Below, piece by piece: positions 2,920-27,408 of a DNA stretch of 27,411 nt; the first letter of the stretch is position 1, and each line of letters starts with the position of its first letter. Position numbers and translations under genes: made by a program. This DNA is from an uncultured bacterium (lineage in GTDB: Bacteria; DUMJ01): positions 1 through 27,411 of the forward strand of contig CALGNK010000007.1 in NCBI GenBank assembly GCA_937958695.1, read 5' to 3'. The notes beneath the pieces are model-generated. The model had not been told where the DNA came from and searched no databases. It saw nothing but the letters and a program-made list of their open reading frames with translations.

Positions 2920-5900
2920 TTATAATAGTTTAACTCCCTTTATTATACTCTCATTTTTATTTTTCCACTCATTTAACGGAATTATATATCTTACTACTTC
3001 AACCTTTTTTTCTACTTTTAGTTCTTCTGCAGGGTTATTAATTATGTAAAGGTTAGGGTTTGTAACCGCATTTGCAACAATGTATAGCCAATATTCTTCT
3101 TTTAGCATCTTTGCCCTAAACCATTCATTTTTGGTAAGAGCTACATCACCTTCATCTTTTCTTGCCTTAACCTCTATATACCTTATTTCTTCCTTACCTT
3201 TAGATTTAATATCAAATCCTAAATTCTTACTTGAAACATCTTCTGGTTCCCTTCCTTGAGATCTCTCATATTCCATTGCAATCCTAATAGCTATTTTATC
3301 TATCTCTTCATCACTTACCATTTCGGTAGAAACTTTTGGTTTAACATAGATCGCGCCAAGAAATTTAGGCATAGATTGATATAAAGCTATTTCATGTTCT
3401 ATGTCTTTTTTTAACCTCTTTAATGATTCCTCGTAGTTTCTTTTCCTTTCCTCTTTATTTTTTATTACAATATCTACTTTCTCTCCCTTCTCTCCTCTCT
3501 CATATAATTTTACCAATTCCTCATCAAGCTTATTTATAAGATATTCCAAAGACCTAACTCCATACTTCTTTTTTATTTCAGCTTGTCTTTTTCTCTCTTT
3601 AAGGAGAGCTTGTCTATACTCACCAAGTAAGGAAATGGCATATTCTTGTGCTCTATCTTTTATTGTACTTTCTATCTGTATTGAATTTTCTGAATGAGCA
3701 GGAACAAGATCCCATAGAATTGCTGGATTTATACTTTTTAACTCTTTCCCATCATCATAGATTGCTATAAGGGTTTTTCCTGCTGTTTTCCCTTTTCCAT
3801 CCTTTACCTCACCTTCAAAAAACCATATAATTCCACTGTATCTACCTTCTGGATCTTCAAATACCGCTCCCTTTTGTAATGAAGAAGCGTAATTTTTGAT
3901 GGTCCATTCAATTAATGCTTCAAGGAGAGGATGTCCAAAGGAGATAAACTCTGCATCAGGATTTTTAAAAGCTAATTCCTTATCAAAGGTAACTTTTGTA
4001 TATGTCCTGGAAAGAACTCCATAGCGAGTTTTAAAATCGAATTCTTCTCCTATTCTTCTTATTTCATAAGGAATTGAATCTATTGAAATAAAGCCATCTT
4101 TTCTGGATTTGAGTTTTCCACCAGCTTTTTCAAAAGCCCTTATAAAAAATTCTTCTACATATTCTGGGATTAGTCTGTTTTCTTTTGCCTTTTCTGCCAT
4201 CTCTTTTATTCTTGTAAAATCTATATACCTTGTGGCAAGACTTTCGCCTAATGCCTCTTTAATCTTTTTTATATATTCTTCATTCACTCTAATATCTAAT
4301 TCTTTTATTATCTCATCCATGGTTCTTGCATTGGTTACCGCATCTAAAATAAGCTGGTAGAGATCTTTTTCGTAAAAAATATCTCCAATGACATCAAATA
4401 CTTTGTCGCTTCCCATAGCCTCTCTAATTTCCTCAAGTTTATCGAAAATTTTGGAAAGTACTTCACCCTCTTTAGTATCTTCAGCTATTAGGTTGTAAAT
4501 GTAGACGTCTTTTTGCTGTCCGTACCTATGGATTCTACCAATTCTCTGTTCGAGCCTATTAGGATTCCAAGGTATGTCATAGTTTATCATAAGGTGACAG
4601 AACTGAAGGTTTATTCCCTCTCCAGCTGCTTCAGTTGCAACCATAACCTGAGTTTCATGTTTAAAAATTACCTCTGCTTTTATCCTTTCTTCTAAATTCA
4701 TACCACCATGGATGAAATTAACAGAGTATCCCCATGAGCTAATTTTTTCTACTAAGTATTCCATTGTATCTTTAAATTCTGTAAAAATTAGAATCTTCTC
4801 ATTTCCTTTTATTTCTCTTATTTTCTTAAATCCCTCTTCTAACGCTTTATTTAATTGCTTTAATTTAATCTCTTCTTCGTTTTTTAATATTTCTTGTGCC
4901 TTTTTCATCAGTGTGTTAAGGGTATTAATCTCTTCTTTTAGTTCTTCTTTGTTTTCTGATATGTTTAAAGTCTCCAACTCTTCTTCTTTTTCCCATCGTT
5001 CTTTTTCTTCATAATCCTCAATCTCTTCAAGATTAATGGGAGTTATTTCTCCTTTAGTAAGATTAGATTCTTTAAGCAATTCTTCGAGCTTTTTCTTTCT
5101 CCTTTCTAGAGATTTGAAAAGCGCATAGGTGCTTGATGCCATTCTTCTTTGTAAAATTAGAGGCGCATAGACTAGATTCCTCCTTTTATCACTTTGCAAT
5201 GCCTTATTATACTGAGAAACAACATATTTTGAAAGCTCATTATAAAGCTTCTTTTCGTTATCTAATAAGCTAAACTTAATTGTTTTAGCATAGCGATTTG
5301 GGAAAAGAGGTTTTCCATGAAAGTCTTTTAAATCCTCCTTCATTCTCCTTATAAATAGAGGATTGTCCTTACTTTGAAGAGATTCAATAATCATCTCCTT
5401 TGTGGCAAAGAAGCCAGGCACTAAGAGGTCTAGAAGTAGTCTGAAATTTTCAGGATCGCCTTTGTGGGGTGTTGCAGTAAGAAAAATAAGATGTTCACTG
5501 GTTCTTGAAAGAACCTCTCCTAACCTATATCTTTCAGTCTTTTCTATCTTTTTAAATTCGTCTCCACCATAGACATAGGCTGACATTTTGTGCGCTTCAT
5601 CAACTATAACAAGGTCCCAGTGAACACTGTTAAGAGAGGGCAAAATATCCTCCTGTTTTGCAAAATCAATAGATGTTATAACTTGACTTTCTTTTTGCCA
5701 TACATTTTCTCCATAAGTGTTTTTAAATACGGATCTATCAATTACATAGAAAGACTCCTGGAATTTTTCTTTTAATTCTCTTTTCCACTGATCCTTGAGG
5801 TGACCAGGAACAATAATTAATATTCGCTTTACAACTCCTCTTATCTTTAGTTCTTTGATTATAAGTCCAGCCATTATAGTTTTACCTGCACCTGGGTCAT

Positions 5901-6279
5901 CGGCAATAAGGAATCTAATAAGAGGAAGCTTTAGAATATAACCATACACTGCCTCTATTTGGAAAGGAAGAGGATCTATCTTTGAAGCACCCATAGCTAA
6001 GAAAGGATCGAAAATGGATGCATATCGAAAACGAGTAGCCTCTAAAGCTAAGAATACATCAGTACCATCGGCGGAAAAGTCCAAAATAAGCTTTTTAACT
6101 TTTATTTTTTCAATTTCTTCTTTTGGAATTAAGGAATCTACATGTTCGTTAGAATATATAGTTTTGCCTATAATGTGAATATAGTCTTGCCTTTCAATAG
6201 CGTTTTTTTCTAAGATCACCGATTCGTTCCAAAAAGGACCTTCTATTATTGTTCCTTCTTTAAACATATCTAAATCCAT
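2920..6279 (-). CDS. SNF2-family helicase with C-terminal DUF3883 (DrmD-like defence helicase)
   Basis: A 1119-residue superfamily 2 helicase. Motif I is DDPGAGKT (127-134), motif II is DEAH (226-229), motif III is LTATPHKG, and the C-terminal RecA lobe has motif VI as EQRIGRIHRYGQ. A long charged, probably coiled segment (~400-480) interrupts the two lobes. The C-terminus (~1000-1080) resembles DUF3883, with GFDI followed by E1036-V-K, a pattern seen in PD-(D/E)xK-like folds; a nuclease role is inference. DISARM DrmD and helicases beside DUF1156 methylases have this layout. It would translocate on DNA and cooperate with the methylase in discriminating foreign DNA. The gene opens the minus-strand defence operon, and its last residues come from the duplicated 66 bp. 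The first in-frame ATG at 6279 is used; no strong ribosome site precedes it. Confidence 0.9.
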   Translation of the reverse strand: MDLDMFKEGTIIEGPFWNESVILEKNAIERQDYIHIIGKTIYSNEHVDSLIPKEEIEKIKVKKLILDFSADGTDVFLALEATRFRYASIFDPFLAMGASKIDPLPFQIEAVYGYILKLPLIRFLIADDPGAGKTIMAGLIIKELKIRGVVKRILIIVPGHLKDQWKRELKEKFQESFYVIDRSVFKNTYGENVWQKESQVITSIDFAKQEDILPSLNSVHWDLVIVDEAHKMSAYVYGGDEFKKIEKTERYRLGEVLSRTSEHLIFLTATPHKGDPENFRLLLDLLVPGFFATKEMIIESLQSKDNPLFIRRMKEDLKDFHGKPLFPNRYAKTIKFSLLDNEKKLYNELSKYVVSQYNKALQSDKRRNLVYAPLILQRRMASSTYALFKSLERRKKKLEELLKESNLTKGEITPINLEEIEDYEEKERWEKEEELETLNISENKEELKEEINTLNTLMKKAQEILKNEEEIKLKQLNKALEEGFKKIREIKGNEKILIFTEFKDTMEYLVEKISSWGYSVNFIHGGMNLEERIKAEVIFKHETQVMVATEAAGEGINLQFCHLMINYDIPWNPNRLEQRIGRIHRYGQQKDVYIYNLIAEDTKEGEVLSKIFDKLEEIREAMGSDKVFDVIGDIFYEKDLYQLILDAVTNARTMDEIIKELDIRVNEEYIKKIKEALGESLATRYIDFTRIKEMAEKAKENRLIPEYVEEFFIRAFEKAGGKLKSRKDGFISIDSIPYEIRRIGEEFDFKTRYGVLSRTYTKVTFDKELAFKNPDAEFISFGHPLLEALIEWTIKNYASSLQKGAVFEDPEGRYSGIIWFFEGEVKDGKGKTAGKTLIAIYDDGKELKSINPAILWDLVPAHSENSIQIESTIKDRAQEYAISLLGEYRQALLKERKRQAEIKKKYGVRSLEYLINKLDEELVKLYERGEKGEKVDIVIKNKEERKRNYEESLKRLKKDIEHEIALYQSMPKFLGAIYVKPKVSTEMVSDEEIDKIAIRIAMEYERSQGREPEDVSSKNLGFDIKSKGKEEIRYIEVKARKDEGDVALTKNEWFRAKMLKEEYWLYIVANAVTNPNLYIINNPAEELKVEKKVEVVRYIIPLNEWKNKNESIIKGVKLL
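2925..2990. repeat. 66-bp direct repeat, right copy (functional helicase 3' end)
   Basis: This is the in-frame partner of the repeat at 2129-2194 and encodes the last residues of the present helicase. Here the frame continues past V-K-L into one extra Leu and a TAA at 2920-2922, instead of the TGA overlapping the methylase start. The unit between repeat copies is 796 bp. Confidence 0.95.
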
Positions 6280-24276: not shown

Positions 24277-27081
24277 ATGAAACAGATTGGACCTTTGGCA
24301 CCGGATAATCTGAGATGTGAGTACTCTGTAAATCCTTTAGGGGTTGATAGGAGAAATCCTAGATTGTCTTGGTTTTTATCTCATTCTGAGCGGGGTGAAA
24401 AACAGACCGCCTATCAAGTGATAGTATCTAGTTCTTTAGAAAATATAAATAACGACGTCGGAGACGTCTGGGATAGTGGTAAGGTTTTATCTAACTCTCA
24501 ATTAATTCTTTATAACGGTTCTCCTTTGGAAGCCAAAAAAGGATACTATTGGAAGGTTAGATGGTGGGATAGTAAAGGCCGTGTAAGTCCATTTAGTAAA
24601 GTAGCTTACTTTGAGATGGGACTTTTAGATGAGTCAGACTGGAAAGCCAAGTGGATAGGACGTGATACTTATGAGCACATTACTATAGAGTCTAAAGATA
24701 TCCCATTTGGTAGATCTTATACGATACCATATTCTGCTCTTTTTAGAAAAGGATTTTTACTTAGAGGACAGATAAAGAGAGCAAGGGTATATGTGTCTGG
24801 TTTAGGTCTATATGAGCTTTATATTAACGGTTGCCGGGTTGGAGATAAAGTCTTAGATCCAGGGCAGACAGATTATAAAAAGAAGGTGTTCTATTCTACA
24901 TATGATGTAACCTGCCTTTTAAAAGAAGGTAAAAATGCTTTAGGAGTGATCTTAGGTAATGGAAGATATGTGAAGGATTATGGATATGACTTCCCTAAAT
25001 TAATCCTACAGCTTGAGGTAGAATATACTGATGGTAAAACTGAGATTATAACCAGCGATGAAACCTGGAAGACTAGTTATGGACCTATACTTGCTAATGG
25101 GATATACTATGGTGAAGTGTATGATGCAAGAAAAGAGATCCCAGGTTGGAATCTAGCAGAATTTGATGATAGCAATTGGGAAGATGTAAAATTAGTAGAA
25201 TCTCCAGGTGGTAAGCTAGTATCAGAAATTATGCCTCCAATCAAGGTTATTAAGACTTTAAAGCCAGAAAAGATAATCAATCCAAAGCCAGGAGTGTATG
25301 TGTATGACTTTGGCCAGAACTTTACTGGTTGGGTAAGACTATTCATAAAAGCTCCTGAGGGTAAAGAGATTAAACTTAGGTTTGCCGAACTTATAGATGA
25401 AAATGGTAATATAAATATATTACCAAATAGAGGAGCCTTAGCTACCGATACATATATAACTAAAGGTGAAGGATTGGAGGTATATGAACCTAGATTTACA
25501 TACCATGGCTTTAGGTATGTTGAGCTTACTGGTTACCCAGGAGTTCCAACACTTGAAACACTTGAAGGACGTGTAGTTCATTCTGCAGTTGAGCCAGTGG
25601 GAGAGTTTAACTGCTCTAACGATTTGATAAATAAGATCCATAGAAATATCCTATGGGGACAACTTAGTAATCTGATGAGTGTTCCTACAGATTGTCCTCA
25701 GAGAGATGAGAGAATGGGGTGGATGGGAGATGCACAGCTTACTGTAGAAGAGGCAATTTATAACTTTGATATGGCAGGATTCTATATAAAATATCTAGAT
25801 GATATAAAACTAGCCCAGAAGGATGATGGTAGCGTCTCTGATGTTGTTCCTCCATACTGGAGTTTATACCCCGCGGATCCGGCTTGGGGAACAGCATATA
25901 TAACAATAGCTTGGTATCTATATCAATATTATGGAGATATAGAGGTCCTAAGAGAACACTACGAAGGTCTAAAGAAGTATGTGGACTTTTTGTCAGGACT
26001 TGCTCCTGATAATATATTAAGATTTTCTAAGTATGGAGATTGGTGCCCTCCTGGTACTATAAGGCCTAAAGATTTCTCCGGTGAACTTGTTTCTACTTGG
26101 TGTTACTACAACGATACTCTTACCCTATCTAAGATAGCTAAAGTCTTAGGCATAGATGATGATTACTCTAAGTATTCGAAACTAGCAGAAAATATAAAGG
26201 ATGCATTTAACAAAAGATATCTTAAAGAGAGATTTTATGCGGTTTCTATTAAGCCTGATATCCCGGAAGATATAGCTTCTAAGATTTTAGAAGCTGTTTT
26301 ATCTAGTATGCCTCCAGACCAGAGAGAAAGGATGAAGCGATTTATTGAGCAAAACCTTTCTTATACCTCTCTTACAAGTCAGACGATAAATACCCTTCCA
26401 TTATACCTAGATATGGTTCCTGAAGATAAGAAAGAGACTATCTTAAAGAGCCTTATAGATGACATAGTGGTTAGTCACGACTATCATCTAGATACGGGAA
26501 TAGTAGGAACTAGATATATATTCGATGTCCTTACCGATAATGGCTATATTGATATAGCTTACAAGATAGCTACGCAGGAAAGTTATCCAAGCTGGGGATA
26601 TATGATAAAAGAGGGAGCTACTACCGTATGGGAAAGATGGGAAAAACTAACATCTACCGGAATGAATTCTCATAACCATATAATGTTTGGAACAGTAGAT
26701 CCATGGTTCTACAAAGCCCTTGGTGGTATAAAGTGTGTGGCTCCTGGCTGGGATAGAGTATTAATAGAGCCACATATAGTTGGAGGATTAAAATATGTAA
26801 AGGCTGGGACTAGGACTCCTAAGGGTTATATAGGTGTAGATTGGGAGATCTTAGAAGATTCGGTAAGTTTTGTAATAAGTATACCTGCTAATATAGAAGG
26901 CGAGATTAGGATTCCTAAGTTATATAAAGATATGGTGATAGAAGAGGGGGATAAAGTAATCTGGTCTAATGGGTCCTTGGCTGAGAAGGTTGAAGGGATA
27001 TATACGGCTAAAGAGGAAAAAGATTATGTAAGCTTTTCTTTAGGCTCAGGGAGATTTGTCTTTAAGGTCAAATCAAAGTAA
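24277..27081 (+). CDS. GH78 alpha-L-rhamnosidase
   Basis: A 934-residue GH78 enzyme with the usual domains: N-terminal Ig-like domain (~15-110, NPLGVDRRNPRLSW), two beta-sandwich domains (~150-425), an (alpha/alpha)6 catalytic barrel (~430-790) and a C-terminal beta domain. The catalytic motif DCPQRDERMGWMGDAQ is at 472-487, with E478 the likely general acid, and W785-E-R-W788 supplies the second acidic residue. It removes terminal alpha-L-rhamnose from plant glycosides and pectic side chains. No signal peptide, so it acts on imported oligosaccharides. GGAGGT lies 9 nt before the ATG. No rhamnose catabolic genes are in the window. Confidence 0.95.
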   Translation: MKQIGPLAPDNLRCEYSVNPLGVDRRNPRLSWFLSHSERGEKQTAYQVIVSSSLENINNDVGDVWDSGKVLSNSQLILYNGSPLEAKKGYYWKVRWWDSKGRVSPFSKVAYFEMGLLDESDWKAKWIGRDTYEHITIESKDIPFGRSYTIPYSALFRKGFLLRGQIKRARVYVSGLGLYELYINGCRVGDKVLDPGQTDYKKKVFYSTYDVTCLLKEGKNALGVILGNGRYVKDYGYDFPKLILQLEVEYTDGKTEIITSDETWKTSYGPILANGIYYGEVYDARKEIPGWNLAEFDDSNWEDVKLVESPGGKLVSEIMPPIKVIKTLKPEKIINPKPGVYVYDFGQNFTGWVRLFIKAPEGKEIKLRFAELIDENGNINILPNRGALATDTYITKGEGLEVYEPRFTYHGFRYVELTGYPGVPTLETLEGRVVHSAVEPVGEFNCSNDLINKIHRNILWGQLSNLMSVPTDCPQRDERMGWMGDAQLTVEEAIYNFDMAGFYIKYLDDIKLAQKDDGSVSDVVPPYWSLYPADPAWGTAYITIAWYLYQYYGDIEVLREHYEGLKKYVDFLSGLAPDNILRFSKYGDWCPPGTIRPKDFSGELVSTWCYYNDTLTLSKIAKVLGIDDDYSKYSKLAENIKDAFNKRYLKERFYAVSIKPDIPEDIASKILEAVLSSMPPDQRERMKRFIEQNLSYTSLTSQTINTLPLYLDMVPEDKKETILKSLIDDIVVSHDYHLDTGIVGTRYIFDVLTDNGYIDIAYKIATQESYPSWGYMIKEGATTVWERWEKLTSTGMNSHNHIMFGTVDPWFYKALGGIKCVAPGWDRVLIEPHIVGGLKYVKAGTRTPKGYIGVDWEILEDSVSFVISIPANIEGEIRIPKLYKDMVIEEGDKVIWSNGSLAEKVEGIYTAKEEKDYVSFSLGSGRFVFKVKSK

Positions 27082-27180
27082 GTCTTTCTAAGGGGGGTAG
27101 GATTGGATGTAGATTTTAAATAAGGCACTTATCTCTTGCAACAACACAGATCTATACACATCTAACACAAAAAACATTAA
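27082..27180. other. Spacer between the convergent GH78 gene and 6S-like RNA
   Basis: No gene is seen. On the minus strand a run of six T (27169-27174) follows the ncRNA closing helix, and ATAAG-TGC-CTTAT (27123-27135) is a weak 5-bp hairpin. The 9-mer GGCACTTAT occurs at 27124-27132 and again at 27371-27379, flanking the RNA gene. No convincing terminator for the GH78 gene is visible. Confidence 0.4.
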
Positions 27181-27373
27181 GCCGTAGGTCCCCAACGAAT
27201 CTTTGAAAACCTATTACCAAAGTTTCTTAAGCATTTTGCCTATCTACCTTTGGGTTCCTTACTAAATTCCAGAATAACTTCTAGAACTTTAGCAGGTTTC
27301 CCTTAGTAGCCTAGGCTACTAGCCTAAGTTTCTTTGGTTTTAAGGTCTTCTAGACCCCTTAGAAACCTACGGC
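27181..27373 (-). ncRNA. ssrS: 6S-like regulatory RNA
   Basis: A stretch of 193 nt folds into one long rod on the minus strand. The closing helix is a perfect 9 bp (27365-27373 with 27181-27189). Next is a symmetric central bubble of 27 nt on each strand. Above it are CCAAAG/CUUUGG (27332-27337 with 27217-27222), CUUAGGC/GCUUAAG (27322-27328 with 27226-27232), GCCUA/UAGGC and CUAC/GUAG, and then an apical hairpin (27262-27292) of about 13 bp with one bulged G. This is the architecture of 6S RNA, which holds sigma70 RNA polymerase by mimicking an open promoter. A U-run follows the 3' end. No reading frame explains the region. Primary-sequence identity to known 6S RNAs is not obvious, so the call rests on size, fold, promoter and U-run. 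Confidence 0.68.
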
Positions 27374-27379
27374 ACTTAT

Positions 27380-27408
27380 ATCATACCCCCCTTATAAAAT
27401 GCTGTCAA
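27380..27408 (-). promoter_or_regulatory. Near-consensus promoter of the 6S-like RNA
   Basis: On the minus strand TTGACA (27403-27408, perfect), 17-bp spacer, TATGAT (27380-27385). The predicted start at about 27373 is exactly the first base of the 9-bp closing helix of the RNA. Confidence 0.8.

Follow-up and report, generated by a model that had tools for sequence, protein, structure and literature searches.

The end of contig CALGNK010000007.1 (assembly GCA_937958695.1), whose 27,411 nt are the whole stretch of DNA analysed and are called the window here, carries on its minus strand what appears to be the gene of an RNA of about 193 nt that folds into a long rod. The preferred reading, to which we give a probability of about 0.6, is that this RNA represents a new family borne by mobile elements (integrative plasmids or prophages), that it would be transcribed independently from a repressor-controlled promoter, and that it would act by binding protein. 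The rod adds to a poorly studied lineage an RNA family that is absent from Rfam 15, without any clue from proteins, and the joint conservation of operator, promoter and rod, linked as they are to replication initiators, offers a testable case of a structured-RNA effector of plasmids or prophages.

Promoter and fold of the rod RNA

The promoter that a sequence-only reading of the window had proposed, TTGACA-17-TATGAT, is indeed present, with the -35 element at 27408-27403, the -10 element at 27385-27380 and 11 of 12 consensus bases (these and all further coordinates of the gene are on the minus strand). The TTGACA is identical in all eight full copies of the gene and the 17-nt spacer is kept in all of them, the -10 element reading TATTAT, TACTAT or TACCAT elsewhere. 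The 193-nt rod (27373-27181) was rightly placed directly behind this promoter; it would begin 7 nt after the -10 element, and its minimum free energy of -92.7 kcal/mol compares with -46.9 +/- 4.2 in shuffled sequences (z -10.84, none of 200 shuffles being as good). A closing helix joins the two ends through 21 pairs between 27373-27352 and 27202-27181, 18 of which are invariant, and the expected apical hairpin of roughly 13 bp (27296-27257) belongs to the fastest-changing parts of the rod. The 5' arm contains a perfect 18-bp palindrome, TAGTAGCCTAGGCTACTA (27321-27304; TGGTAG-CTTAGA-CTACCA in relatives). The alternative local hairpin GGUCU-AGA-AGACC (27356-27344), also predicted from the letters alone, can form in competition with the rod, and is possible in the remaining copies as well (GGUCUAGAGGACC).

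Refolding upheld the strong rod of the sequence-only reading but not its symmetric central bubble of 27 nt on each strand. Single-sequence folds and the eight-sequence consensus agree on a nearly continuous chain of helices separated by small loops, with internal loops of at most 5+5 nt. The notion that such a bubble opens at thermophilic temperatures was rejected, since the minimum-energy folds of three rod copies are still rods at 60, 70 and 75 C. As for the 3' end, a run of six T does follow the rod (27174-27169) and is the likely end of the transcript, but the terminator is a weak intrinsic one: the 6-nt spacer TTAATG intervenes, the run is absent from one copy, and a terminator scan made no call at this site. 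Folding energies are -88 to -96 kcal/mol for the sense strand against -55 to -67 for the antisense strand, a difference of 22-35 kcal/mol, and each copy holds 9-13 G-U pairs, which together argue for selection on an RNA of the promoter's orientation.

Copies, conservation and the putative operator

DNA searches recovered eight full copies of the rod, four in the window's own genome (G000) and two in each of two other genomes examined from the same phylum (G001 and G002). The other three copies of G000, on contigs C5, C8 and C45, are 87-90% identical to the window rod, and partial copies lie at G000:C8:40451-40512 and on G001:C51. A covariance model built from the eight copies found matches in 3 of 290 genomes, all of one genus; scanning the contig collection of GTDB for an exact pattern returned contigs matching G001 and G002 and one further contig, L023, and the rod was absent from the phage, plasmid and viral collections searched. 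The closest solved relative of the product of the adjoining alpha-L-rhamnosidase gene (24277-27081, plus strand) is PDB 6i60, which we take to be a Dictyoglomus enzyme, and on that ground the host genus is likely placed in Dictyoglomota. As these searches portray it, the rod RNA is a new family, multicopy in its genomes and occurring in one small group of bacteria that resemble thermophiles.

The eight copies align from an upstream TATACCCCC across promoter and rod to the T-run, beyond which they are unrelated. Standard pairs occupy 97.9% of the pair cells of the rod alignment (A2), and the proportion drops to 32-56% when the register is slid. Covariation among relatives, which the sequence-only reading had proposed to look for, was found: seven pairs changed on both sides against 3.0 in shuffles, none of 500 shuffles doing as well. 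Because the comparison comprises eight sequences from three genomes that fall into two main groups, and because the shuffle control ignores relatedness, this gives the rod good but not overwhelming support. Conservation is concentrated in the helices, 105 of 144 paired columns (73%) being invariant as opposed to 21 of 55 unpaired ones (38%), and the preponderance of invariant paired columns, together with the kept G-U pairs, points to a helix that is recognised as such rather than to loops that pair as antisense. No Rfam 15 family reached its gathering score for the rod, nor was any rod copy matched in the scan of the loci; at E<=10 two rows appeared, both far below their cut-offs and neither of them 6S, so that the search yielded no better match to another family, the outcome named beforehand as speaking against the sequence-only reading. 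Conservation, covariation and the empty Rfam search support the view that the rod is an undescribed, apparently independent structured RNA with its own promoter.

The putative operator is a palindrome, ATACCC-N5-GGGTAT, that overlaps the -35 element; an extra GGG-TAT lies near the -10 element, and in the window the half-site-like repeat GGGGGGTAT (27391-27383) overlaps the -10 element itself. The contig end cuts the palindrome off in the window copy; the other copies retain it, as does L023. Searching the three genomes for the combined operator-promoter pattern with up to two mismatches gave the RNA genes and one other site, G001:C118:5447; the window copy was missed because the contig end removes its upstream part. 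The additional site (L091:1501) consists of a perfect palindrome, ATACCCC-ATT-GGGGTAT, followed by TGATAA, and is the sole operator-like match away from a rod gene. It might be one more site at which the same regulator acts.

Mobile-element surroundings and proposed role

Replication and integration genes recur beside the rod. On G001:C154 a plasmid initiator of the RPA/TrfA type is flanked by two rod copies, and 8.6 copies of a 22-bp iteron lie between the initiator gene and the promoter of one of them, copy G1a. The rod on G002:C40 has an RPA gene roughly 2 kb upstream and, at a distance of some 9 kb, an S24 repressor; copy G2_287, on G002:C287, has the end of a tyrosine integrase gene about 50 bp away. 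In the three genomes, RPA genes that score above the cut-off occur solely on rod-bearing contigs. The further contig, L023, breaks off within a rod; over the 110 nt that the two share, promoter included, this rod is identical to the window copy. The contig encodes a replication-initiator-like protein, a primase-helicase, a DNA methylase, an ImmA/IrrE protease and an S24 repressor; the first of these has no Pfam or PHROG match, and the initiator label is our own reading. L023 may continue the window, an unproven join that relies solely on the 110-nt identity, the contig being absent from the G000 assembly. Relatives of its initiator-like protein and primase-helicase adjoin the partial rod copy on G001:C51, and no relatives of the Rep and primase proteins were found in IMG/VR. 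Around the C5, C8 and C45 copies there are toxin-antitoxin-like genes or IS remnants, with no replication or integration gene within the few kilobases read.

The rhamnosidase gene next to the window rod has orthologues in G001 and G002; what comes after them is a cluster of tRNA genes (Thr-Tyr-Gly-Thr) and a tuf-like gene, and no rod RNA. A search for the far side of the window's insertion did not find the tRNA cluster and the second tuf copy joined in the G000 assembly. Similarly, the gene neighbouring the C5 copy is conserved in relatives without the rod RNA beside it, and at C45 the conserved block stops between the rod RNA and a GH2 gene. Since neighbouring genes are conserved without the RNA in relatives, the rod copies are, as far as gene order can tell, at variable, non-syntenic, island-like sites.

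A dispersed repeat, TGAAGTTCGGACATCTGGATTCAGATAAA-ATACCCCC, occurs at L023:7518 and at about ten other places in G000; it is probably the left end of an insertion sequence with several truncated copies. The L023 copy abuts the RNA operator and shares its ATACCCCC.

In the preferred reading, a repressor of the element, either an S24 protein or a MerR-like one such as G001:C154 encodes, would control the rod promoter through the operator; upon derepression the rod RNA would accumulate and act in trans as a double-helical RNA that binds protein. Its most likely target would be the element's own replication or maintenance machinery, or else a host protein that the rod sequesters. A role in replication or maintenance, which is read from the neighbourhood, is favoured because initiators recur as neighbours of the rod. 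A short-word blastn of the rods against the loci, meant to reveal Watson-Crick complementarity to the leaders of replication genes, gave rod copies and fragments alone among its best 60 matches.

Alternative readings and related RNAs

The likeness of the rod to 6S RNA explains how it came to be called an undescribed 6S-like RNA. Like 6S/SsrS (RF00013), it is one long hairpin in the range of about 180-200 nt with its own sigma-70 promoter. The first half of that label stands, namely an undescribed RNA with a promoter; the second is not supported, for in contrast to 6S the rod lacks a central bubble, is multicopy and associated with mobile elements, and has no match to the RF00013 model, even at E<=10. 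6S RNA genes usually number one or two per genome, and genuine ones (RF00013, cut-off 46.4 bits) were found at G000:C8:2081-2258 (50.5 bits) and G001:C14:22044-22221 (59.5 bits); no 6S RNA was found by RF00013 in G002, a fragmented assembly. Unlike the rod, the genuine 6S folds with larger unpaired stretches at 60-75 C. The two 6S genes (L028:1501-1678, that is G000:C8:2081-2258, and L027:1501-1678) lie upstream of what seems to be the same gene in both genomes. The rod as its genome's 6S gene was rejected on the RF00013 miss, the missing bubble, the true 6S elsewhere and the four rod copies in one genome. Thus a 6S-like outline in raw sequence is insufficient, and copy number, context and the true 6S decide the label. 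A functional mimic is a different matter: an element-encoded rod might bind RNA polymerase and shift host transcription without descent from 6S. The similar size (193 versus 178 nt), the single long hairpin, the strong sigma-70 promoter and the GGUCU/AGACC hairpin that all copies can form are consistent with mimicry, but no central bubble is open at 37-75 C, RF00013 similarity is lacking, the genome encodes a genuine 6S elsewhere, and the unpaired columns of the rod are its least conserved, whereas 6S needs its bubble; we consider such mimicry unlikely. Somewhat less doubtful, and still tentative, is the broader conjecture that plasmids or prophages of a deep-branching thermophile make a repressor-controlled rod that binds and reprograms a host protein, be it RNA polymerase, a ribonuclease or a defence protein, as an independently evolved, element-encoded counterpart of the protein-sequestering RNAs of the 6S type. 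Within the literature searched, one paper concerns a 6S-like RNA in Streptomyces; no study linked 6S with Dictyoglomus, and none dealt with 6S mimics encoded by mobile elements.

GOLLD- and ROOL-type RNAs are linked to phages and, like the rod, are structured non-coding RNAs tied to mobile elements and without assigned function. They and other large RNAs are several hundred nucleotides long, branched and multimeric (PMC12286853), unlike a single 193-nt rod. The Ms1 RNA of Actinobacteria, which binds core RNA polymerase (PMC9130861), resembles the rod as a standalone structured RNA of the 6S size class and differs in being actinobacterial and core-polymerase-binding, a comparison made for the rod solely through its absent Rfam matches.

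A serious alternative, if one of small probability, is that the rod gene matters chiefly as DNA, its transcription being secondary: it could be where the element's tyrosine integrase attaches or recombines, or a single-strand hairpin origin. It is serious because of the internal palindrome TGGTAG-CTTAGA-CTACCA, the integrase adjoining copy G2_287 and the truncated copies G001:C51 and G000:C8:40451-40512, which break at rod positions 76-84; in addition, copies G1b and G1a are near-identical up to position 71 and diverged beyond it. A DNA site would not, however, call for the perfect -35 element and 17-nt spacing that all copies keep, the kept G-U pairs and the strand asymmetry fit RNA rather than DNA, no paired left and right half copies mark an attL and attR, and most copies have no integrase near them. 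The Rcd RNA of ColE1 cer, a plasmid-borne RNA whose gene may be linked to a recombination site, is a parallel by description alone, and is far shorter than the 193-nt rod. Slightly less probable still is a non-functional dispersed repeat, a MITE-like hairpin whose promoter is fortuitous. The copies are multiple and non-syntenic, fragments exist and IS remnants are close by, yet compensatory changes separate the copies, promoter geometry and operator are conserved, and the eight aligned copies with their flanks show no terminal inverted repeats at the unit ends and no evident target duplications, the latter judged by eye.

The least probable of these readings, very unlikely in our estimate, makes the rod an anti-defence decoy; it might imitate the CRISPR repeats of the host, for instance, or be a double helix that lures a defence protein or one of the RNase III type. 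RNA-based anti-CRISPRs (Racr) are likewise small RNA genes on mobile elements. Besides the mobile-element context, rod positions 51-75 partly resemble the host repeat GTTTGTAGCTAACCTATAAGGGATTGAAAT in three of the four G000 copies (shuffle p 0.006-0.008, the repeat being taken from G001 since the G000 array is unassembled). Against a decoy, the remaining five copies show no significant resemblance (p 0.06-0.40) in what was one of several tests tried, and the rod does not carry the conserved GATTGAAA end of the repeat. Mimicry of the Racr kind was accordingly rejected, with local-score p values spanning 0.006-0.40 and the GATTGAAA 3' handle absent; the resemblance is weak and lacks the repeat's 3' end.

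Several smaller features accompany these loci. On L037 (G001:C47) a CRISPR-leader-like stretch and one degenerate CRISPR repeat lie directly upstream of the gene for a tyrosine integrase that shares 82% identity with the one beside copy G2_287. A segment able to form a hairpin (GTGCTGGGGATCGACAGAAAA...) lies downstream of the S24 repressor and of its truncated, pseudogene-like copies (L023:7473-7513; L064, L065) and turns up again between the cas genes and the CRISPR array of G001 (G001:C143:5572). About 2.3 kb from rod copy C8, the minus strand of L015 carries a fluoride riboswitch at 465-527 (RF01734, 39.7 bits), and a seemingly frameshifted ADP-ribosylglycohydrolase follows that copy (L015 ~3130-3966); a gene of the same family is also found near copy G1a on G001:C154. 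In the window itself, the minus strand at 2920-6279 encodes an SNF2/DEAD helicase of 1119 aa that carries a NOV_C (NO VEIN) domain at its C terminus and may be a defence protein.
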